Both the position numbers and the translations under genes were made by a program. A stretch of 64,000 nucleotides of DNA from Methanosarcina barkeri str. Wiesmoor (GTDB lineage: Archaea; Halobacteriota; Methanosarcinia; Methanosarcinales; Methanosarcinaceae): contig NZ_CP009526.1 of NCBI RefSeq assembly GCF_000969985.1, positions 4,774,001 through 4,838,000 on the forward strand, in the 5' to 3' direction. Numbering within the stretch: position 1 is the stretch's first letter; every line of letters begins with the position of its first letter. Under the pieces are notes generated by a model. The model was given only the letters and a program-made list of their open reading frames with translations. It was not told where the DNA came from and did no database searches. This document shows positions 14,460 through 55,925 of this stretch, piece by piece.

Positions 14460-14672
14460 GGGAGTTGGAGAACAGAGTATCTCTCCTACCTGAAGGGATC
14501 AGGAACGTTAAGCCGGAGAAGACCGGAAGTCGAAAGACATCTCAAGTATAATCTCATGCTCATATTCTATTTCACCTTCGGAACGAGGGGCTAGAGCCTT
14601 ACAACTCGTCAACATTGGTTGGGAGGATATGACTCAGGAAGCCCCTGAGTCTTTAGCTTAGGGGTAGTTCAC
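14460..14672 (+). mobile_element. Solo right end of an IS200/IS605 (IS1341-type) element
   Basis: Bases 14572-14668 align clearly with the region downstream of tnpB in the IS605-type element at 45 kb: both have CGGAACG, AGAGCC, GGGAGGA, CAGGAAGCC, AGTCTTTAG and end in GGTAGTTC. The end forms a hairpin (CCCCTGAG ... CTTAGGGG, 14642-14664). Just upstream an open frame ending at a TAA at 14549-14551 may be the last codons of a lost tnpB. The rest of the element is missing, so this is a relic. Its edge coincides with the 3' end of the sensor gene on the other strand. If still transcribed, it would contain an omega-RNA-like scaffold. Confidence 0.7.
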
Positions 14673-16249
14673 GAGAGTTCTGCTTGAATGCAGACTGGAG
14701 CGATATAATTCACCACCTGAAGAGCAATGCTCTCAAGAAAGTTTCGGATATCCCAGGGAATCTTATCAAGGGTATGGGAGGCGAAGTTTAAGCTGCCCAC
14801 AATATCTCCTCTATAGTTGAGAGGAATTATGGCAATAGATTTTATTCCTTCCCTCTTTACTGCGTCAACCGTTGTATCAGAGTAAAATTCCAGTGAGTAT
14901 ATGGGCTTTCCAATAAAAATTTGCCTTGCCTCCAGAGAATCTGCCTTATATCTGGAAATTTTTTCTCTAAACTCGGGGGAAATTCCCCTATATGCAACCA
15001 GGTTTAGCTGGTCCAGGAGTTCGTCCTTGATGTGTATAACCCCTACATCGAGTCCATTTATTTGAAGGCAGGAATCAAGAACTCGGGAGAGTATTGTCTG
15101 GAGATTCCAGGTAGTACTCAGTTCCTTTCCTAGTTCTCGCTGGATCTCAAGCATTTTCTGGGCTTCTTTTCTTTCGGTAATATCAACTACAAGACCCTGA
15201 AAATGAGTTGCTTTTCCTTCTTCATCTCTCTGGATAAAGGTCTTCTCTTCTACCCAGAGCATTTTTCCATCCCCTGTAAAAATTCTATATTCAACGTCGA
15301 AGTAATCCTGTTTCTCTGCAATGTTGCGTTTGAGGGTTTCAATAACAGAGCCTATATCATCTTTGTGAATAATGCTTTCGTAAGGTACTTTTCCTGAAGT
15401 AAAATCTTCTACCCTATACCCGAACTTAGTTACGTTTTCTGAAACGTACACTGTTGGCAGGTTTTCTTTGTTTTCCCACAAAAAAGCCACTGCCTGGCTG
15501 TTATTGATTATAGTTCTTAAGAGTTTCTGAGTCTCTAAAGACTTTCTGAGAGCTTCTTCGTTCTCTTTTCTCTCAGTTACGTCCAGCACAAGCCCTTGAA
15601 AGTGAGTCACTTCTCCTTCAGGACTTCGCTGGATAAATGTCCTTTCATTCACCCAGTGGAGATCGCCGACTTTTGTAAAGATTCTATATTCTATATTGAA
15701 GTCAACTTCACCTTTCTGGATACGCTCTTTAAGCGAATCCTCAACTCTCTTCAGGTCATCAGGATGGATAATATCTCCATACAGGACCCTACCTGAAATG
15801 AAGTCCTCCACTGTGTACCCAAACTGGACCACATTTTCAGAAACAAACTCAGAAGGCCATTTTTCTTCATTTTTCCATAGAAATACCACTGCAGGACTGT
15901 TATTTACCACAGTCCTGATTATTTCCTGCATCTCAAGAACAGAAAGTAAATCCACGATTCCTATTGCTGCAATAACTTTCCCATCTTCTGAGAAAATGGG
16001 AGAAACAACCACGTTCCTACCCAGATACGTGCCTTCCTTTGGCACTCCACGTATGGTCTCGCCGGTCCTGAGCACCTCTTCAAGTACAGGGCCTGTATAT
16101 TCTCTGTCAAGGATTTGACCTTTCTCCAGGCGAAGTCCCTTTCGATTGAGGCTGCGGATAGTGGTTGGAAGCCCAACAAGAGAGTGCACTGCGACCGCTA
16201 TAGACTCAAGTTCATCAGACCCCGCATCTTCAGATATTAAAGAAGTAAT
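14669..16249 (-). CDS. DUF2111-PAS-PAS-GAF sensor protein, 3' end in an IS relic
   Basis: Predicted cytoplasmic sensor. Order: DUF2111-like domain (about 1-120), PAS1 (135-240), PAS2 (265-370), GAF (380-520). Each PAS ends in a THFQGLV-DVTERKE or VDITERKE linker. No kinase domain follows: the stop TGA at 14669-14671 lies inside the IS605 right end, so the original 3' part was probably lost. No ATG/GTG/TTG opens the conserved N-terminus; the first is a GTG at 16189 inside it. GGGGGTGA stands 4 nt before an ATT codon at 16249-16247, which I take as a possible non-canonical start (526 aa). The frame is closed by TAG at 16319-16321. Confidence 0.7.
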   Translation of the reverse strand: MTSLISEDAGSDELESIAVAVHSLVGLPTTIRSLNRKGLRLEKGQILDREYTGPVLEEVLRTGETIRGVPKEGTYLGRNVVVSPIFSEDGKVIAAIGIVDLLSVLEMQEIIRTVVNNSPAVVFLWKNEEKWPSEFVSENVVQFGYTVEDFISGRVLYGDIIHPDDLKRVEDSLKERIQKGEVDFNIEYRIFTKVGDLHWVNERTFIQRSPEGEVTHFQGLVLDVTERKENEEALRKSLETQKLLRTIINNSQAVAFLWENKENLPTVYVSENVTKFGYRVEDFTSGKVPYESIIHKDDIGSVIETLKRNIAEKQDYFDVEYRIFTGDGKMLWVEEKTFIQRDEEGKATHFQGLVVDITERKEAQKMLEIQRELGKELSTTWNLQTILSRVLDSCLQINGLDVGVIHIKDELLDQLNLVAYRGISPEFREKISRYKADSLEARQIFIGKPIYSLEFYSDTTVDAVKREGIKSIAIIPLNYRGDIVGSLNFASHTLDKIPWDIRNFLESIALQVVNYIAPVCIQAELS

Positions 16250-16599
16250 TCTTTCACCCCCAGAAATCCTAAAAATTATTAAAAGTAAAAAGGTTGAAGA
16301 GTTTTCAGCAAGAAGAAACTAAGAGCTGAACCCTCTATACATCCTTTTTTCCTTATTTTAATGCATTTTGAGTGGTTATATATTGATCTTAATTTATATA
16401 ATTTAGATTTTTCTCAAATTTCCAGATTCCACTTTCCTTTGAGACCGTTCTTTTCTGGTTTCCATCTCGGTTCTTGATCCCGATTCCTCGGCGAGTATGT
16501 TTTTTCAACCGCCGCAGAAACGTAACAGTTCAGTAGTTTCGATTTATTATAGTTCCGAATGACAAATCTCATTCATTTATAATTTTTACTTTAATAGTT

Positions 16600-23628: not shown

Positions 23629-23755
23629 GTTTAGCGAATTTCCTTAGTTTAGCGAATTTCCTCAGCTTAGCGGTTTTTTCAGCTTAGCGGATTTTTTCAG
23701 CTTAGCGGATTTTTTCAGCTTAGCGGATTTCTTCGGCTTAGCGAATCCCTTCGGC
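23629..23755. repeat. 18-bp tandem repeat derived from the radB 3' end
   Basis: Seven units of 17-18 bp. Read on the radB strand, the first unit is the gene's own last six codons, Ala-Glu-Gly-Ile-Arg-stop (23755-23738). The next three read Ala-Glu-Glu-Ile-Arg-stop and twice Ala-Glu-Lys-Ile-Arg-stop, in the same frame; the remaining units have drifted. The array therefore repeats a coding tail together with its stop codon. Confidence 0.9.
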
Positions 23756-24406
23756 TGTAATTCTAAATTCTGCACTCGAACCTTCAGGGCAGGACCGATG
23801 TTTGTACAGAATAGCGCGCCTGGTTCCTTCGCCGGTTTTTTCAAGCTGGATGATCGTCTTTGAAATATGCTCCAGGGAACTACCGCCAAGCGGACGCACC
23901 CCCCCTGAAGTAATATCGGAATATACCTGGTTGGTTATGACTGCGGCAAAACCGTATTTACGGGCAAGAGCATGCAAATATCCTATCTGGCTAGCAAGTT
24001 CTCTGCGGCTTTTCATGCCTGTCTCATCGTCTTCAAGCTCGAACCTGTAGTATGAGGTCGCAGAATCAAGGATCACGAGACCTATATTCTCACTGGCTAT
24101 TCTCTCCACTTCCCTTACGGCCGCATATTGTTCTTCAAAATTCAGGGGTTCATAGATAATGATGCTTCTAGCTAGTTCTTTTGCATTATCCCCTGCAATC
24201 TGCTTGAATCGAGTAGGAGAAAGCCCTTCGGTATCTATGAAGATGACTCTCTGCCCTTGCTTTACGCATTCCACTGCAAGCTGGATGCAGACATTTGTTT
24301 TCCCTGTTCCTGCAGCTCCGAAGATTTGAGTCACAATCCCTTTTTCGAAACCTCCTCCTAGAAGTTCGTCAAGAGGCTTGCAGCCGGAAGATAGTAATTT
24401 TTCTAT
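23738..24406 (-). CDS. radB: DNA repair and recombination protein RadB
   Basis: Archaeal RecA/Rad51 paralogue that assists homologous recombination; unlike RadA it lacks the N-terminal DNA-binding domain. It begins with a SGCKPLDELLGGG core, Walker A GAAGTGKTN, Walker B LVILDS, ITNQVYSD and a short end TAEGIR. The family normally starts at about IEKLLSSG. No ATG is available there: the nearest usable codon is a TTG at 24469 with no SD. A strong SD, AGAGGTG (24420-24414), lies 7 nt before an ATA at 24406-24404, which I take as the likely start (222 aa). Its last codons are the source of the adjoining 18-bp repeat. Confidence 0.88.
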   Translation of the reverse strand: MEKLLSSGCKPLDELLGGGFEKGIVTQIFGAAGTGKTNVCIQLAVECVKQGQRVIFIDTEGLSPTRFKQIAGDNAKELARSIIIYEPLNFEEQYAAVREVERIASENIGLVILDSATSYYRFELEDDETGMKSRRELASQIGYLHALARKYGFAAVITNQVYSDITSGGVRPLGGSSLEHISKTIIQLEKTGEGTRRAILYKHRSCPEGSSAEFRITAEGIR

Positions 24407-24770
24407 GAAGTGACACCTCTTTTGTGCTTGGTAAATATAACTGACCCATGATATAACGTTTTTTTGCAATTTCCAACCTTTTCAGGAAAATTAACGATTT
24501 TCTAAGAGGAATAAAAAGACAAAGTGGATATAAAAGAAATGCTCGGGTATAGATTCCTGACCCTTCCAAGAATTAAAAAAATTCACAAGAGTACAGTGAA
24601 AATGAGAATGATGATTTGGTAATATTTTTTCAAAGTGTGGAGGAATAATTCCTTATACATGTTAGCCGTACTGTACCCGGCAAATCGGGTATGGGTATCC
24701 CTTAAAGTCTTCTGTGCTTGAAATTATTTCATTAAAGAAGGCAGTTTTTCAAAAACAGGGGTCCTTAAAT

Positions 24771-45186: not shown

Positions 45187-45330
45187 ATAATGAGAACTAC
45201 CACTCATCTAAAGACTTAGTGGCTTCCTGGTTCATTCCTCCCTCCATTGAGGGCAAGTTCCCCAGGCTCTTCCCCACGTTCCGTAGGTGTTACAACCCAA
45301 TTAGATTTTGATCTATGAGAGCGAATTTCT
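45187..45330 (-). ncRNA. Putative omega-RNA (TnpB guide RNA) scaffold
   Basis: The segment spans the tnpB 3' end and the element's right end, where TnpB guide RNAs are made in IS200/IS605 elements (family knowledge). Support: about 95 bases are conserved with a second, solo right end at 14572-14672, although no protein lies there. The guide would be read from the flank beyond 45187, which is the leader of the TFB-like gene. Confidence 0.45.
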
Positions 45331-46399
45331 TGATATTGATAGCGGCATTTATGTCTCTATCATGTTTTGTTTTACAGTCTGGACAAGTCCATTCTCTATC
45401 TTTTAATGTCAAATCTGAATTATTATATCCGCAGACATTACAAAGCTTAGAAGATGGCTCAAACTGTCCAATTCTCAGGATGGTTTTTCCGAACAATGCC
45501 GCTTTGTATTCTAATTTTGTAACAAAGATACTCCATGCAGAATCACTTATAGCCTGTGATAAGTGGTGATTCTTAACCATTCCTTTAACGTTCAGAGTTT
45601 CCAGAACTATAGCTTGGTTTTCGCTTATAAGTTTAAAAGAGAGTTTGTTCTGGAAATCATGTCTCTGATTGCTTATTTTCTCATGGAGTACAGCAAACCT
45701 CTTTTTGGCTTTTGCTCTGTTCTTTGAACCTTTCTGTTTCCTTGATACTTTTTTTTGAAGAACCTTTAACCTTTTCAAAGAGTTTTTCAGGTAGTTAGGA
45801 TTCTCAATCTTTTCTCCTGTGGAAAGTATAGCAAAATCCTTAATCCCGACATCTATACCCACTGTAGTAGATTCTGAATACTTCTGTTTTGTAGGAAGTT
45901 CTTTTCCGTCTTCAACAAGGACACTAATGTAGTAATTCCCTTTACAAGACCTTGATACTGTAGCTGTTTTAAGATCTCCATCAAACTTTCGGTGAAGAAC
46001 TGCTTTAATCGGTTCGATTTTTGGAAGCTTAACTGTGTTGTTTTCAAAATTCACAGAATAGTGTTGGGGTATAGGAAATGATTGAATTGGATTTTTCTTT
46101 GATTTAAACTTAGGAAATCCATTCTTTTCTCTGAAAAATCTGGTGAAAGCAGATTCTACCTGCTTAGTCATTCCTTGTAATGACTGTGAGTTTACTTTTC
46201 CTAACCATTCATTAGAAGATTTCAAGACAGAAATCTTTTTGTTTAAGTCAAATCTGGAAATAGATTTTCCTGTTTGTTCGTAAGTTTTAATTTTTTGATC
46301 CAACGCCCAATTGTAGACAAATCTACAGCTACCTATATGCTGATTCAATTGAACAGCCTGCGTAGCTGTAGGATAGAGTCTAAATTTGAACGCTTTCAT
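45290..46399 (-). CDS. tnpB: TnpB RNA-guided nuclease of the IS605-type element
   Basis: A 369-aa protein from the second of two adjacent ATGs (46402/46399). N-terminal MKAFKFRLYPT and helical REC-like region, RuvC motifs GIDVGIKDFA (Asp), VLETLNVKG (Glu) and HDRDINAAINI (Asp), and a zinc ribbon CNVCG...CPDC. All three catalytic acids and four cysteines are present and the length is normal, so the nuclease appears intact even though tnpA is not. Confidence 0.9.
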   Translation of the reverse strand: MKAFKFRLYPTATQAVQLNQHIGSCRFVYNWALDQKIKTYEQTGKSISRFDLNKKISVLKSSNEWLGKVNSQSLQGMTKQVESAFTRFFREKNGFPKFKSKKNPIQSFPIPQHYSVNFENNTVKLPKIEPIKAVLHRKFDGDLKTATVSRSCKGNYYISVLVEDGKELPTKQKYSESTTVGIDVGIKDFAILSTGEKIENPNYLKNSLKRLKVLQKKVSRKQKGSKNRAKAKKRFAVLHEKISNQRHDFQNKLSFKLISENQAIVLETLNVKGMVKNHHLSQAISDSAWSIFVTKLEYKAALFGKTILRIGQFEPSSKLCNVCGYNNSDLTLKDREWTCPDCKTKHDRDINAAINIKKFALIDQNLIGL

Positions 46400-46447
46400 C
46401 ATACAGAGTAGTATACGCTTTAACAATATATAGATTTTTTAGTAAAT

Positions 46448-47241: not shown

Positions 47242-49284
47242 TTGAATAATTTTCAGGAAAAAACGAGTTTTATCTGGTCAGTTGCAGATGAAGTCTTAAG
47301 GGACGACTTCAAGAGAGGAGAATACCCTGATGTGATCCTTCCATTCACGGTATTGAGGCGGCTTGACTGCGTACTTGCGCCTACAAAAGATAAAGTCCTT
47401 GAGTATGACAAAAAACTGGAAGGAAAAATTGAGAACAAAAATGGTGCACTACGTCATGCTTCAGGTTACAGTTTTTACAATACATCACCTTATGATTTTG
47501 AAAAACTTCTTGCAGCCCCAACCAGCATTGGCCAGAACCTCCGCGCCTATATAAATGGTTTTTCGGAAAACATGCGAGAGGTTATAGACAAGTTCAAACT
47601 CTGGGGAACCATCGACACGCTGGAAGAAAAAGGCCTGCTCTTCCTTTTGATCCAGAAGTTTGCAAACGTTGACCTGCATCCCGACGCTGTCAGCAACCAT
47701 GAAATGGGCTACATATTTGAAGAACTGATCCGCAAGTTCAATGAGCAGACGAATGAAAACCCAGGCGAACACTTTACTCCGAGAGAGGTAATTCGGCTGA
47801 TGGTGAACTTACTGTTAAGCCAGGACCAGGAAAAGCTTGCTCAGAACCACATTGTTAGAACGGTTTACGATCCTGCCTGCGGTACAGGCGGAATGCTGAC
47901 AATTGCAAAAGAGCATATCCTTGACCACATTAACCCCAATGCAAATATCAAACTCTTTGGCCAGGAAGTAAACGACAAAACCTTTGCAATCTCCAAATCA
48001 GATATGCTGATTAAAGGCGACGACAAAGATGCCGACAACATCAAGCCTGACTCTTCCTTTTCAAAAGACGGCCATGCAGGAGAAACCTTTGATTATATCC
48101 TCTCAAATCCCCCCTACGGCAAAGACTGGAAAAAAGAGGAGGATTTCATTGAAAAAGAGGCAAAGAAAGGCTATGAAGGCCGTTTCGGAGCCGGACTTCC
48201 AAGAAAAAGCGACGGCCAGCTTATTTTTGTCCAGCACATGATCTCCAAGATGAAGCCCACGGAAGAAGGCGGCTCAAGAATCGCCATCGTCATGAACGGA
48301 TCACCCCTCTTTACAGGCGATGCAGGCTCAGGAGAAAGTGAGATCCGCCGCTGGATTATTGAAAACGACTGGCTCGAAGCGATTGTGGCCCTTCCAAATC
48401 AACTTTTCTACAACACAGGCATTAACACCTATATCTGGATTATCACAAACCGCAAGGATGAACAGCGCAGAGGAAAAGTTCAGCTTATAAACGCTGCCGA
48501 TTTCTACGTAAAAATGCGAAAGAGCCTCGGCGACAAGCGCAATGAGATCTCCCCTTCCCAGATCGAAGAGATCACAAAGCTTCATACCGATTTCAAAGAG
48601 AACGAGTTTGTGAAGATTTTCGATGACGAAGCCTTCGGCTACAGGAAAATTACAGTTGAACGCCCCTTGCGCCTGAATTTCCAGGCCTCTCCGGAACGGA
48701 TAACACGCCTGAAAGAGCAGTCAGCTTTCCAGAAACTTGCTGTCAGCAAAAAGAAAAAAGACCTCCAGGAAAAAGCCAGGGAGGAAGCTGAAGGCCGAAA
48801 AGTCCGGGAGGAGATCATAAATGCCCTTTCCGGCATGGATGCAAATGTTTTCTACACAGACCGGGAACAGTTTGAAAAAGACCTGAACGCAGCCCTGAAA
48901 AAAGCAGACCTGAAACCTGCCACAGCAGTAAAAAAATCTATCTTTGAAGCCCTTTCCGAAAGCGACGAAAACGCCGAGACCTGTAAAGATAAAAAAGGTA
49001 ATAACGAAGCCGATTCCCAGCTTAAGGACACTGAAAATGTTCCCCTGAAAGAGGATATTTACACTTACTTTGAAAGAGAAGTCAAGCCTCATGTTCCGGA
49101 TGCCTGGATTGATGAAACAACCCGCGACCCAAAAGACGGAAAGGTCGGAAAAGTCGGGTACGAGATTAACTTCAACCGCTATTTCTACAAATACGAGCCT
49201 CCGAGAGCACTTGAAGATATCGAGGCTGATATCAATAAACTGGAGAATGAAATTCTGGAATTGTTGAGGGAGATGGCTGAATGA
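47242..49284 (+). CDS. hsdM: Type I restriction-modification DNA methyltransferase subunit
   Basis: N6-adenine methylase subunit, 680 aa. N-terminal HsdM_N helical domain (1-150), SAM-binding motif I DPACGTGGML, catalytic motif IV SNPPYGKDW, and a long charged C-terminal extension (500-680) that is helical and Lys/Glu-rich. Starts at TTG with the strong SD AGGTGATC. It overlaps hsdS by 4 bp (ATGA). First gene of hsdM-hsdS-hsdR. Confidence 0.95.
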   Translation: MNNFQEKTSFIWSVADEVLRDDFKRGEYPDVILPFTVLRRLDCVLAPTKDKVLEYDKKLEGKIENKNGALRHASGYSFYNTSPYDFEKLLAAPTSIGQNLRAYINGFSENMREVIDKFKLWGTIDTLEEKGLLFLLIQKFANVDLHPDAVSNHEMGYIFEELIRKFNEQTNENPGEHFTPREVIRLMVNLLLSQDQEKLAQNHIVRTVYDPACGTGGMLTIAKEHILDHINPNANIKLFGQEVNDKTFAISKSDMLIKGDDKDADNIKPDSSFSKDGHAGETFDYILSNPPYGKDWKKEEDFIEKEAKKGYEGRFGAGLPRKSDGQLIFVQHMISKMKPTEEGGSRIAIVMNGSPLFTGDAGSGESEIRRWIIENDWLEAIVALPNQLFYNTGINTYIWIITNRKDEQRRGKVQLINAADFYVKMRKSLGDKRNEISPSQIEEITKLHTDFKENEFVKIFDDEAFGYRKITVERPLRLNFQASPERITRLKEQSAFQKLAVSKKKKDLQEKAREEAEGRKVREEIINALSGMDANVFYTDREQFEKDLNAALKKADLKPATAVKKSIFEALSESDENAETCKDKKGNNEADSQLKDTENVPLKEDIYTYFEREVKPHVPDAWIDETTRDPKDGKVGKVGYEINFNRYFYKYEPPRALEDIEADINKLENEILELLREMAE

Positions 49285-50714
49285 GTGGGCTTGTGGGTGA
49301 GGTTAACGAGAATATTCAGGTAAAAAACAGCCAGGAAAAATATGATGTAAATCTGGGTATTCGTGAGTGGAAACGCTATCCAGAGTATAAGGATTCAGGG
49401 GTGGAATGGATTGGGGAAATTCCGAAAGAGTGGGAAGTAAAAAAAATAAAGCATACAACCTATGTGAAAGGGAGAATTGGCTGGCAAGGCTTAAAATCTG
49501 ATGAATTCATAGATGAAGGACCTTTTTTAGTTACTGGAACTGATTTTATTAATGGATCTGTTAATTGGGGATCTTGTTATCACGTAAACGAAGAAAGATA
49601 TAATGAAGATCCTTATATACAGTTAAAAGAAAAAGATCTATTAATTACAAAAGATGGAACTATAGGAAAGGTAGCTCTAGTAACAAGATTAAAAACAAAA
49701 GCTACTTTGAACAGCGGTATATTTTTAACAAGACCTCTTACCGGAGAGTATTATACCAATTTCATGTACTGGCTACTGAATTCGGAAGTTTTTGAAACTT
49801 TTTTTAATTACATTTCAAATGGATCTACAATTCAACATCTTTACCAAAACGTATTTGTTATCTTTTCATTCCCACTACCCTCACTTTCAGAACAACAATC
49901 TATTGTGAGCTTTCTAGACCGCGAAACCTCCAAAATCGAGACCTTGATCGAAAAAAAGCAACGCTTAATTGAACTTTTAGAAGAAAAGCGCTCTGCCCTG
50001 ATAAGCCATGCAGTAACAAAAGGGCTTGATCCTTATGCGAAAAAGAAGAATTCTGGTGTGGAATGGGTTGGGGAAATTCCTGAAGGTTGGTTTTTAAGTA
50101 AATTAAAATATCTCACATCAAAAATTGGAAGCGGAAAAACTCCTCGGGGCGGTTCCGAAATTTACTGTGACTCAGGAATTCTTTTTTTGAGAAGCCAGAA
50201 CGTACATTTTGATGGTTTAAGATTGGATGATGTTGTCTATATTGATGAAAGTATAGATTCGGAAATGTCTTCTACACGTGTATTACCTGATGATGTTCTT
50301 TTAAACATAACTGGGGCCTCAATTGGAAGATCGAGCATTGTTCCAAAAGATTTTCCTCAAGCAAATGTCAATCAACACGTGTGTATTATTCGTCCCTTGA
50401 AAAAGAAAATTGATTCACGATTATTACACTACGAACTTAGCTCAAACGGGGTACAAGCCCTGATTTTTTCAAATGAAAATGGAACATCTAGGGAAGGATT
50501 AACATTTTCACAGATATCTAATTTTGTTATAGCAATTCCAAATAATCTGGATGAACAAAGACACATTGCCAATTTCCTCGACCACAAAACTGAAAAAATT
50601 GATACATTTATAAATAAGATAAGCGCGCAGATAGAAAAACTGAAAGAGTACCGCACTGCTCTGATCTCTGCGGCTGTCACTGGAAAAATTGATGTGCGGG
50701 AGGAAGTTGCATAA
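49281..50714 (+). CDS. hsdS: Type I restriction-modification specificity subunit
   Basis: DNA-recognition subunit, 477 aa: two target-recognition domains (about 35-200 and 255-425), each starting with GVEW(I/V)GEIP, and two conserved helical spacers (EQQSIVSFLDRETSKIETLI and EQRHIANFLDHKTEKIDTFI). The two halves differ in sequence, so a bipartite asymmetric site is expected. ATGA overlap with hsdM; the stop TAA overlaps an ATA that may start hsdR. Confidence 0.93.
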   Translation: MSGLVGEVNENIQVKNSQEKYDVNLGIREWKRYPEYKDSGVEWIGEIPKEWEVKKIKHTTYVKGRIGWQGLKSDEFIDEGPFLVTGTDFINGSVNWGSCYHVNEERYNEDPYIQLKEKDLLITKDGTIGKVALVTRLKTKATLNSGIFLTRPLTGEYYTNFMYWLLNSEVFETFFNYISNGSTIQHLYQNVFVIFSFPLPSLSEQQSIVSFLDRETSKIETLIEKKQRLIELLEEKRSALISHAVTKGLDPYAKKKNSGVEWVGEIPEGWFLSKLKYLTSKIGSGKTPRGGSEIYCDSGILFLRSQNVHFDGLRLDDVVYIDESIDSEMSSTRVLPDDVLLNITGASIGRSSIVPKDFPQANVNQHVCIIRPLKKKIDSRLLHYELSSNGVQALIFSNENGTSREGLTFSQISNFVIAIPNNLDEQRHIANFLDHKTEKIDTFINKISAQIEKLKEYRTALISAAVTGKIDVREEVA

Positions 50715-53700
50715 TCGATACGTCTGAAAAGGATTTTGAAGAGAGCATTGAGAAGAGCCTGCTTGAGGACGGATATCTGAAGAGGAAATCTGAGAATTAT
50801 GATAGAGAACTCTGCCTGGATACGGAAATGCTCTTTGACTTTTTGAGGACTACACAACCTGAGACATGGGATGAATTTAAAAAACGCAGGGGACCGAGGC
50901 ATAGGGAACTTTTTCTGGAAAGACTTCAGAAACAGATTGATAGACGCGGAGTGCTTGACCTTCTGCGGAAAGGGATTAAGGACAGTGGGTGCCATTTCAA
51001 GCTCGCTTATTTCAAGCCGGAAAGTGATCTTAATGAAGAACACAGACGGCTTTACAATGGGAATATCTTTTCTGTAGTGCGGCAGCTTCATTACAGTAAA
51101 AAGGAACCTTTGCTTTCCCTTGATCTTGCGCTTTTTTTGAATGGGTTTCCGGTAGTTACAGCAGAACTTAAAAATCCTCTGAAGGATCAGAACGTTCAGG
51201 ATGCCGTAAAACAGTACAGGGATACCAGAAACCAGAACGAGCCTCTTTTTAAGCTGGGACGTTGTTTTGCTCATTTTGCGGTTGATCCTGACCTTGTATT
51301 CATGACTACGGAACTGAAAGGGAGTTACACGGATTTTCTGCCATTTAACAGGGGAAGAAACGGAGGAGCTGGGAATCCTGACAACCCGAATGGGTACAGG
51401 ACTTTTTACCTCTGGAAGCGGGTCTGGCAGAAAGACCAGATGCTTGAGATTATCCAGAATTTCCTGCAGTTCGTAAAGGAAGAAAAGGAAGGAAGAACCG
51501 GAAAGAATAAAAAAGATGGAAAAGATGGAAAAGAAAAGAAAATTGTCCGGAAATTCATTTTCCCGCGCTATCACCAGCTCTATTCTGTAAAAAATCTTGT
51601 TACACATGCCAAATATCACGGTACAGGTTATAATTACCTTATCCAGCACAGCGCAGGAAGTGGGAAAAGCAACACCATAGCCTGGCTCTGTCTGCAACTT
51701 TGCGGGCTGCATGATACCGAAAACAAGCGGGTTTTTGACTCAATTATTGTTGTTACGGACCGAAGAGTGCTTGACAGGCAGCTCCAGGAAACCATCACAC
51801 AGTTCGAACATGTCAAGGGCACAGTTGCAACCATCAAAAAAGACAAAGCAAAAAGCCTGACAGCCGCACTTCAGGAAGGAAAGGATATCATCATCTGTAC
51901 ACTTCAGACTTTTCCCTTTGCCGTAAACGCGATCAGTGAGATGTCGGGAAAGCACTTTGCCGTAGTCGTCGATGAAGCCCATTCTTCCCAGAGTGGGGAA
52001 GGGGCAGACAGCGTAAAAAAGATCCTTGGATCTGCGGATCTCGAAAGTGATGAGCAGGAAGAAGAGCCTGAAGATGATGAAGACCTCGTAAACCAGAGAG
52101 TAGAGGCAGAACTGAAGCACAAAGGCAGGCTTCCCAATGTCAGTTTCTTTGCCTTTACCGCAACCCCGAAAACCAAAACCCTTGAACTCTTCGGTACCCA
52201 GCAGCCTGACGGGAGCTATGAGCCTTTTAGCCTCTATACAATGAAGCAGGCAATTGAGGAAAAATTCATCCTGGATGTGCTTGAAAATTACACTACCTTC
52301 AAAGTTTATTTCAACCTGCTCAAAACAATAGAAGACGACCCCAGATACAGCAAAAAGAAAGGCATGCATCTCCTCAAAGCTTATGTGGACAACCATGACC
52401 ACTCCATAAGGACAAAAACGGTCATCATTGTCGAGAACTTCCGTGAACAGGTCATGCATAGAATTGACGGGCAGGCAAAGGCAATGCTTGTCACAAAATC
52501 CAGGGCAAGCGCAGTTAAATATAAACTGGCTTTTGACAGGTACATAAAGACCCATGAATATCCTTTCAAAGCCCTTGTAGCCTTTTCAGGTACGGTTCAG
52601 GATGGGGAAACCGGCAGAGAATTTACAGAAGCAATCATGAACGGTTTTTCGGAAAGCCAGACTGCAGAAGTTTTCAAGCGGGAAGAATACCGCATCCTGA
52701 TAGTGGCCAATAAATTCCAGACCGGCTTTGACCAGCCTTTATTGTACGCAATGTATGTGGATAAAAGGCTCGGGGGCGTAAATGCTGTCCAGACTTTAAG
52801 CCGCTTGAACCGTAAATATCCAGATAAAGAAGATACGATGGTCCTGGACTTTGAAAACGAAGCAGACCTTATTCAGCGGAGTTTTCAGCCCTACTACGAA
52901 AAAACCCTGCTCACTGAAGCAACTGACCCCAATAAGCTCTACGATTTTGAGTATGAGCTTAAAGAATACCATATTTTTGAAGAAGAAGATGTAGAAACCT
53001 TTGCCAGGGAATATTTCTCACCAAAAGGCAAACAAGAAAAGCTTCATTCCATACTTTCCCCGGTTGTTGACCGCTACCTCGCAAAACCAAAAGAGAAACA
53101 GCATGATTTCAGAACGCTGGCTAAAAGATATGTAAGGCTCTATTCCTACCTTTCTCATGTAATTCCCTTCAAAGACGTTGATCTGGAAAAACTTTACCAG
53201 TTTTTGCGGCACCTGCACAGGAAACTTCCAGTTTCAAGAGACCGCCTTCCTGTGGAAATTACTGAAAACATAAACATGGATTCTTACCGTATTCAGCAGA
53301 CCAGCAACGGAAAGATAGCTCTTGCGGACGAGGAAGGAAAGCTTGGCCCTAGCCGGGAACCCGAAAACTTCAGTGAACCTGAAGAAGAACTCACACCCCT
53401 CTCCATAATTATTCAGGAAATAAATGAAAGATTTGGAGATATTGATTTTACAGACGCAGATAGACTAAGATACTTTTCAGAAGATATGGAGCGCCGTCTT
53501 GTAGAAAACGAAAACCTTGCACGGGCTGCAAATCCGGAAATAAACACAAAGGACAACTTCAAACTTATCTATAACGACTACTTTGACGATATCCTGAACG
53601 ATATGATAGATTCAAACTTTGATCTCTACACCAAAATCAATGATGACAGAGATTTCGGAAATATATTCAGAAAAGCTCTCTTTGAAAGTGTTTACAGGCA

Positions 53701-53725
53701 TTTGACTAAAGGAAAGAAAAAATAA
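50711..53725 (+). CDS. hsdR: Type I restriction endonuclease/translocase subunit
   Basis: Motor and nuclease subunit, about 1004 aa. N-terminal DTSEKDFEESIEKSLLEDGY and nuclease motif VVTAELKNP (PD-ExK type), Walker A HSAGSGKSNT, DEAH box VVVDEAHSSQ, then SF2 motifs (FTATPKTKT, FQTGFDQPLLYAMYVDK, QTLSRLNR) and a C-terminal helical domain. The first ATG (50828) would cut off 39 conserved residues. The frame is open upstream to a TGA with no ATG/GTG/TTG; GGGAGGA (50697-50703) stands 7 nt before ATA 50711-50713, which overlaps the hsdS stop as ATAA. I take this ATA as the start. Confidence 0.9.
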   Translation: MIDTSEKDFEESIEKSLLEDGYLKRKSENYDRELCLDTEMLFDFLRTTQPETWDEFKKRRGPRHRELFLERLQKQIDRRGVLDLLRKGIKDSGCHFKLAYFKPESDLNEEHRRLYNGNIFSVVRQLHYSKKEPLLSLDLALFLNGFPVVTAELKNPLKDQNVQDAVKQYRDTRNQNEPLFKLGRCFAHFAVDPDLVFMTTELKGSYTDFLPFNRGRNGGAGNPDNPNGYRTFYLWKRVWQKDQMLEIIQNFLQFVKEEKEGRTGKNKKDGKDGKEKKIVRKFIFPRYHQLYSVKNLVTHAKYHGTGYNYLIQHSAGSGKSNTIAWLCLQLCGLHDTENKRVFDSIIVVTDRRVLDRQLQETITQFEHVKGTVATIKKDKAKSLTAALQEGKDIIICTLQTFPFAVNAISEMSGKHFAVVVDEAHSSQSGEGADSVKKILGSADLESDEQEEEPEDDEDLVNQRVEAELKHKGRLPNVSFFAFTATPKTKTLELFGTQQPDGSYEPFSLYTMKQAIEEKFILDVLENYTTFKVYFNLLKTIEDDPRYSKKKGMHLLKAYVDNHDHSIRTKTVIIVENFREQVMHRIDGQAKAMLVTKSRASAVKYKLAFDRYIKTHEYPFKALVAFSGTVQDGETGREFTEAIMNGFSESQTAEVFKREEYRILIVANKFQTGFDQPLLYAMYVDKRLGGVNAVQTLSRLNRKYPDKEDTMVLDFENEADLIQRSFQPYYEKTLLTEATDPNKLYDFEYELKEYHIFEEEDVETFAREYFSPKGKQEKLHSILSPVVDRYLAKPKEKQHDFRTLAKRYVRLYSYLSHVIPFKDVDLEKLYQFLRHLHRKLPVSRDRLPVEITENINMDSYRIQQTSNGKIALADEEGKLGPSREPENFSEPEEELTPLSIIIQEINERFGDIDFTDADRLRYFSEDMERRLVENENLARAANPEINTKDNFKLIYNDYFDDILNDMIDSNFDLYTKINDDRDFGNIFRKALFESVYRHLTKGKKK

Positions 53726-54754: not shown

Positions 54755-55925
54755 GTGTTTCACCCATTTAATTTTTGGACATCTTTATAAGCTTTGAATC
54801 CCTTTATCCATTCATGCTACAGATTAAACTTGAAGATAATGAGGTAACTTTCCTTCTTGACTTTACAAGAAAAGGACATAGAAGTGCAAGAGAACTAACT
54901 CGAGCCCGTATTCTCCTTTTGTCTAACCAGCAAAAAAGAGTTACTGAGATAGCAGAAATATTAGGTGTTTCCAGGAATACTACTTTGAATGTTAGGAAAA
55001 GATACCTTGATGAAGGTCTTCCCCATGCTCTTTTGGATAAACCAAGATCTGGTCAACCTGTAAAATATACTGAAAAACATGTTGCAGAAATAATCGCTTT
55101 AGCCTGCAGCGGTTCTCCTCATGGAAGCAAGAGGTGGTCTCTTTCTCTACTTACCGAAGAACTTAGGAAAAAAGAAGGATTTGAAACTATAGGTAAAGAA
55201 AGTGTAAGGCTTATTTTGAAAAAAGCAAAACTAAACCTTGGTTAAAAAGGATGTGGTGCATTCAGACGATTGATTCTGAATATAGAGACAGAATGTATGA
55301 TATTCTTGATCTGTATGAAGAGGATTACGACCCTAAAAAACCTCTTATTTGTCTTGATGAAAAGCCAAAGCAACTGCTTATGGATAAGAGAATGAGAATT
55401 CCTATGAAATCTGGAAGCTCAGAAAAATGATTATGAGTATGTCAGGAACGGAACAGCAAACATATTCATGGCAGTAGAGTTCAAAGCAGGAAAAAGAGTG
55501 ACTCGGGTAACAAAGAGTAGAACAATGAAGGATTTTGCACAATTCGTGAAGATTCTAGTTATCGAAGAATATTCTGAAGCAGAAGTTATCAGACTGGTTA
55601 CGGATAATCTCAATATCCATAAAGAAAAGTCATTCTACGAAACATTTTCCAAAGAAGAAGCAAAGCAGATTATGGACAAGATAGAGTTCCACTACACGCC
55701 AAAACATGCAAGTTGGCTCAATGCTGCAGAAATAGAGATCAATGTGATGGATATTGAATGTACAGACAGAAGAATAGGCGACATGGAGACGCTTAAGCAT
55801 GAAGTGGGTGCATGGACAAAAAGAAGGAATGAACAAAAAAAGAAAATTGAATGGAAGTTTACAAGGAAGAATGCAGATGAGAAAATGTCAAAGTATTATG
55901 TGAAATAATTAAATGTACAGGACAC
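54755..55925 (+). mobile_element. IS630-family insertion sequence
   Basis: 1171 bp bounded by TA dinucleotides (54753-54754 and 55926-55927), the target duplication of this family. The inverted ends are similar: GTGTTTCACCCATTTAAT at the left and GTGTCCTGTACATTTAAT at the right. It holds one transposase gene with two frameshifts. It sits exactly at the stop codon of the short-form integrase-like gene. Confidence 0.82.
54814..55908 (+). pseudogene. IS630 transposase with two frameshifts
   Basis: Frame 1 (54814-55245) is the HTH region (RVTEIAEILGVSRNTTLNVRK). A shift near 55240 leads to KRMWCIQTIDSEYRDRMYD and LICLDEKPKQLL (first catalytic Asp). A second near 55425 leads to the rest (from DYEYVRNG, LVTDNLNIH with the second Asp, WLNAAEIEINV with the Glu). 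The DDE residues are all still there, so decay is recent. No slippery sequence is obvious at the first site, so programmed frameshifting is not favoured. Confidence 0.8.

Follow-up and report, generated by a model that had tools for sequence, protein, structure and literature searches.

In Escherichia coli, translation of infC starts at an AUU codon located behind a Shine-Dalgarno (SD) sequence. In Staphylococcus, AUA or AUU starts located behind strong SD sequences have been mapped by ribosome profiling in ccpN, cvfC1, infC and citZ, reporters carrying these codons giving ~10% of the AUG yield, and the starts of ccpN and cvfC1 are conserved over Staphylococcus species (PMC13009471). Conserved AUA and AUU starts are hence already published for bacteria. 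For archaea in general and Methanosarcina in particular, no report of AUA, AUU or AUC starts was found in the open-access library searched. The starts of small open reading frames named in a Ribo-seq study of M. mazei are ATG, GTG, TTG and CTG, ATA being nowhere mentioned (PMC11456600). According to a survey of archaeal gene overlaps, termination-reinitiation is favoured where subunit genes overlap by a short stretch; non-canonical starts were invoked there only as a rare possibility to account for odd overlaps (PMC10666635). At a coupled E. coli junction devoid of SD sequence, the second gene was no longer translated once AUGA had been changed into AUAA (PMC9955659).

Here we analysed a window of 64,000 nucleotides from Methanosarcina barkeri str. 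Wiesmoor, in which the restriction gene of a type I system overlaps the preceding gene by ATAA. As judged from sequence comparisons, hsdR is probably translated from the AUA codon at 50711-50713, as one case of a family-wide use of AUA, AUC or AUU (AUH) starts behind a strong SD sequence.

The hsd operon and the hsdS-hsdR junction

The hsdM-hsdS-hsdR operon occupies positions 47242-53725 of the forward strand. Its first gene, hsdM (47242-49284), has a TTG start codon behind an eight-base perfect SD sequence (AGGTGATC), while hsdS (49281-50714) encodes two target-recognition domains. Both contain the expected Pfam domains above cut-off, N6_Mtase and HsdM_N in the former and two stretches of Methylase_S in the latter. 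The third gene, hsdR (50711-53725), encodes a restriction subunit of 1004 amino acids, counted from ATA, which matches HSDR_N, ResIII, SWI2_SNF2 and T1R_D3-like, all above cut-off; the NCBIfam hsdR and hsdM models matched below their cut-offs. With methylase, specificity and restriction/translocase domains predicted in three adjacent genes, the operon corresponds to a type I restriction-modification gene set. The start codons differ in all three genes, being TTG for hsdM, ATG for hsdS and, as proposed here, ATA for hsdR. By eye, the operon is flanked by an apparent TnpB-type IS605 protein (45290-46426, reverse strand) on one side and by an apparent helix-turn-helix transposase fragment (54775-55245, forward strand) on the other, which suggests a mobile neighbourhood.

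A sequence-only reading of this DNA had claimed that hsdR lacks a canonical start codon at its N-terminus and begins at an ATA fused to the hsdS stop, in the same way as ATGA links hsdM and hsdS. Reading of the frames confirmed this description. The ATGA overlap is located at 49281-49284. At the second junction, hsdS ends with GTT GCA TAA, its stop codon occupying 50712-50714, and the ATA at 50711-50713, in the hsdR frame, overlaps this stop, the four common letters being ATAA. Upstream, the open stretch of the hsdR frame is limited by a TGA codon (50690-50692), followed by TGT GCG GGA GGA AGT TGC ATA ATC GAT ACG TCT GAA AAG. No ATG, GTG or TTG, the only starts recognised by the open reading frame lister used here, is found between this TGA and the ATG at 50828-50830, which is located 39 codons past ATA and is not preceded by an SD word. 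The SD sequence GGGAGGA (50698-50704) is embedded in the end of hsdS. Its distance to ATA proved to be 7 nt, as had been stated, when counted from the final G in GGAGG (50703), in agreement with the modal spacing of 7-8 nt calibrated on the ATG genes of this genome.

The N-terminus of HsdR and the start codons of its relatives

Conservation and structure prediction indicate that the 39 residues ahead of ATG 50828 are part of HsdR. As the earlier reading had pointed out, a start at this ATG would remove conserved residues; these comprise six positions invariant among 36 aligned homologues, namely E6, E10, I13, L17, Y22 and D37 (numbering from ATA). An AlphaFold model of residues 1-330 places a helix (residues 6-19) and a strand (residues 23-25) with high confidence within the nuclease domain, the pLDDT of this block reaching 96-97 from residue 11 on, while residues 1-4 are disordered, as expected of a true N-terminus. 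VIA-align superimposed the model on HsdR of EcoR124I with a Z score of 17-18 over ~260 residues (rmsd 3.3), starting at chain residue 27, and the predicted N-terminal nuclease domain thus has the EcoR124I fold.

Across the order, four genomes were found to possess the same hsdS-hsdR junction. Their hsdR genes start with GTG ACT GAT (L101 and L102), GTG AGT AAG (L002) or GTG AAT AAA (L104), each GTG having its own SD sequence. DNA alignment places these GTG codons in the ATA column, and the distance to a conserved Phe is eight codons for all four and for ATA. The earlier reading had proposed checking whether ATG stands at this position in other Methanosarcina; L002, the sole other Methanosarcina genome with the junction, has GTG and not ATG, so that only one genome is known to have AUA in hsdR. 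Two further relatives depart by one codon. In L107, GTG is located one codon further out than the ATA column, while in L103, which is 59% identical over the searched region and has a different upstream region, ATG aligns with ATC, the codon after ATA. In these alignments, the hsdR start is conserved in position but not in codon identity.

A search for related loci retrieved mostly bacterial hsdR genes, mainly with ATG starts and with variable N-termini; they were used for conservation and are too distant to compare the junction. Searching plasmids for hsdR returned distant matches to parts of the gene only, and viral contigs, scanned for the hsdS-hsdR junction with either A or G at position 50713, contained no copy. 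The closest hsdR homologue by identity, L100, lacks any canonical start ahead of codon +59; its contig begins just upstream, which makes it uninformative. In this contig (L100:1-480), ~68 open codons precede IDTSEKDFEE, up to the contig end, without ATG, GTG or TTG.

AUA, AUC and AUU starts in other genes of the family

The sequence-only reading had ascribed the same pattern to two other genes of the window, radB and a sensor gene. This claim stood for radB, which begins at ATA; the sensor gene follows the pattern in kind, with ATT in place of ATA.

From its ATA (24406-24404), radB extends over 23738-24406 of the reverse strand (NCBIfam recomb_radB) and is preceded by the SD sequence GAGGTG (24414-24419). 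The start listed by the open reading frame lister, TTG 24469, lies in poorly conserved sequence. All 30 Methanosarcina loci compared have ATA, behind AGAGGTG, at the beginning of the conserved RadB N-terminus. Twelve alignment columns are invariably Ile. The first of them is ATA in 30/30 loci, whereas codon choice varies in each of the remaining 11, as expected if this ATA is retained for initiation rather than to encode Ile. Beyond Methanosarcina, the column, behind GAGGTG, is ATA in 19 genomes from eleven further genera of the family and ATC in five genomes of a twelfth. In seven genomes (L222, L224, L225, L226, L227, L230 and L233), an in-frame stop codon lies between GAGGTG and ATA, directly before ATA in one of them and one codon before it in the others, so that no upstream codon can be the start there. 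In six other genomes of the family, no stop separates ATA from an in-frame GTG located three codons upstream, and this GTG may be the start there. That a DNA-repair gene has kept AUA across an archaeal family, although a single mutation would give AUG, is suggestive of selection for weak initiation.

The sensor gene, encoding a DUF2111/PAS/GAF protein (Pfam; 14669-16249, reverse strand), would start at ATT 16249-16247 behind GGTGA (16254-16258, reverse strand), within GGGGGTGA. Behind this same GGGGGTGA, the start column is ATT throughout the genus, except for ATC in L178. In a draft genome (L180), TAG is found three codons past the ATT column, which speaks against that start in L180. Separate small DUF2111 paralogues (e.g., L358) share ATT behind a conserved GGGGTGA, and another paralogue, L189, has ATG one codon upstream of the ATT column.

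Two further genes were found outside the window. In a hexulose-6-phosphate synthase/RraA fusion (NCBIfam PRK07028; L251:8609, i.e. G000:C2:4628609, reverse strand), the predicted start is ATA, and the corresponding column, behind GAGGTGAT, is ATA in 16, ATC in 12, ATT in one and ATG in one (L327) of 30 Methanosarcina. The lone ATG falls exactly in this column, thereby identifying it as the start position. Over most of the sampled Methanosarcinaceae genera the column is AUH, one genus having ATG (L420), and in L377 and L378 an in-frame TAG directly precedes it. A NikA-like ABC substrate-binding protein (L240:5448, i.e. G000:C2:4405448, forward strand) would start at ATC. The start column is ATC or ATT in 13 orthologues and ATT, ATC or ATA in 9 paralogues, always with (A)GGAGG ahead, and a start at the next ATG would remove the signal peptide.

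The SD spacing is 7 nt for hsdR, the sensor, the synthase and the NikA-like protein, and 9 nt for radB, compared with 7-8 nt for ATG genes. As with hsdR, no canonical start is present at the conserved N-terminus of RadB, the synthase or the NikA-like protein. The AUH column is kept across species in radB, synthase/RraA, the sensor and the NikA-like protein, whereas hsdR relatives have GTG. Since they recur over tens of genomes, the AUH starts of these other genes are not sequencing errors, radB and the synthase above all. Several conserved Methanosarcinaceae genes thus appear, from alignment, to begin at AUA, AUC or AUU. The claim is confined to Methanosarcinaceae, because in outgroup families of this order ATG is often present in radB and the synthase, or else an in-frame GTG located three codons upstream of the AUH column.

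The frequency of such starts was assessed on 1.26 Mb of this genome, taken as stretches, in which 584 coding frames were called. For ATG starts preceded by a perfect SD word, the spacing peaked at 7-8 nt. Among frames with coding signal well before any canonical start (25 in total), eight in-frame triplets were located 6-9 nt behind an SD word. Half of these (4/8) were ATA, ATC or ATT, against 11.5% expected (binomial P = 0.008): the ATA of hsdR, the ATA of synthase/RraA, the ATC of the ABC binding protein and the ATT of the sensor. In bulk, triplets behind SD words were enriched in ATG, GTG and TTG over the 1.26 Mb, with no excess of ATA (23 versus 21 expected), which indicates that AUH starts are rare. 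Two candidates, C2:2270891 and 2276930, were set aside as ambiguous because of an ATG inside the SD sequence. A further candidate ATA start, at L277:13275 (G000:C2:1373275, forward strand), lies behind AAAGGAGG (IKYQHDNTFRIMSLC...) and is flanked by canonical codons, 12 upstream and 11 downstream.

Initiation of hsdR, its alternatives and known systems

Translation of hsdR likely starts at ATA 50711, as the earlier reading had proposed, because GTG stands in this column of its homologues and AUH starts occur in other genes of the family. It is improbable that initiation takes place one codon on, at AUC 50714-50716, which would still be a non-canonical AUH start. ATG is found in the same column of L103 and AUC starts are used by other genes in the genus; however, the spacing would be 10 nt instead of the modal 7-8, the relatives sharing the hsdS junction start one codon earlier, and the upstream context of L103 differs. 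To the same degree, it is improbable that a recent mutation of an ATG or GTG start left hsdR nearly silent, or translated as a damaged protein from ATG 50828, the system being reduced to methylation. Such a loss would account for the occurrence of the hsdR ATA in one genome only, a G-to-A change at 50713 would make ATAA from ATGA while preserving the hsdS stop, and E. coli AUAA junctions without SD sequence are dead (PMC9955659). The hsdR frame is nevertheless intact over 1004 codons with its domains present, a strong and well-spaced SD sequence is retained, and AUA starts are conserved elsewhere in Methanosarcinaceae.

That position 50713 (or both 50711 and 50713) was misread or misassembled, concealing a true ATG or GTG start, is more unlikely still. 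Although a single base would restore ATGA, the junction has been read in one isolate and the scan of viral contigs supplied no copy of it, the assembly consists of two contigs and is 99.95% complete, and the AUH starts of other genes are found again in tens of genomes. An HsdS-HsdR fusion produced by -1 frameshifting from hsdS is the least credible alternative and a very improbable one. The two frames do overlap in the right register, but just six open codons of the hsdR frame precede ATA, no slippery heptamer is present, and homologous junctions start with GTG behind their own SD sequence.

If hsdR starts at AUA, the GGGAGGA located inside the end of hsdS would set this codon in the ribosomal P site, where initiator Met-tRNA would read it with a third-position mismatch, HsdR thus beginning with Met. 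Through the ATAA overlap, ribosomes ending hsdS would stop on the spot, and termination-reinitiation would probably give much of hsdR initiation. Such coupling fits the preference of short subunit-gene overlaps for termination-reinitiation in archaea (PMC10666635). Considering that the E. coli AUAA junction without SD sequence was dead, the SD sequence should be essential for hsdR, and the yield from AUA would be lower than from AUG. At the scale of the family, a few genes would use AUA, AUC or AUU as start codon, at standard spacing from a strong SD sequence, several of these starts being conserved over genera.

A weak start might hold the restriction subunit HsdR below the methylase, the protective arrangement put forward in the sequence-only reading. 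Dosage control need not be the reason for the AUA of hsdR, however, because genes for DNA repair, metabolism, sensing and transport have AUH starts as well, and a need for scarcity of a nuclease does not apply to them. Bearing on this idea of nuclease scarcity, hsdR relatives have GTG or, in bacteria, mostly ATG. It may also be speculated, with considerable doubt, that Methanosarcinaceae keep a set of AUA, AUC and AUU genes by selection, their output following start-codon stringency (e.g., aIF1 or initiator-tRNA supply), and that type I restriction in this strain is linked to such control.

The family-wide pattern, above all radB and the hexulose-phosphate synthase, is the part worth following and is stronger evidence than hsdR. 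Gene-finders limited to ATG, GTG and TTG misplace or truncate proteins with AUH starts, and RadB or HsdR cloned from a canonical-start annotation would carry a false N-terminus. As Methanosarcina is genetically tractable, the AUA of radB across the family lends itself readily to studies of archaeal start-codon fidelity.

As in the candidate genes described here, E. coli infC combines an AUH start with an SD sequence, but its product, IF3, itself senses the start codon, while the archaeal genes encode no initiation factor. The Staphylococcus genes likewise have AUA or AUU behind a strong SD sequence (PMC13009471); the present cases differ in that they concern an archaeal family and several gene families, with a third base drifting between A, C and U, and are predicted from sequence. 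Similar to archaeal ATGA and GTGA overlaps (PMC10666635), the hsdS-hsdR overlap is 4 nt long and joins subunit genes of one complex, but it reads ATAA. Finally, the gene set, domains and predicted fold are like those of EcoR124I-type systems (HsdM, HsdS and HsdR), and in comparison with such type I systems the start codon of hsdR is the only unusual feature.
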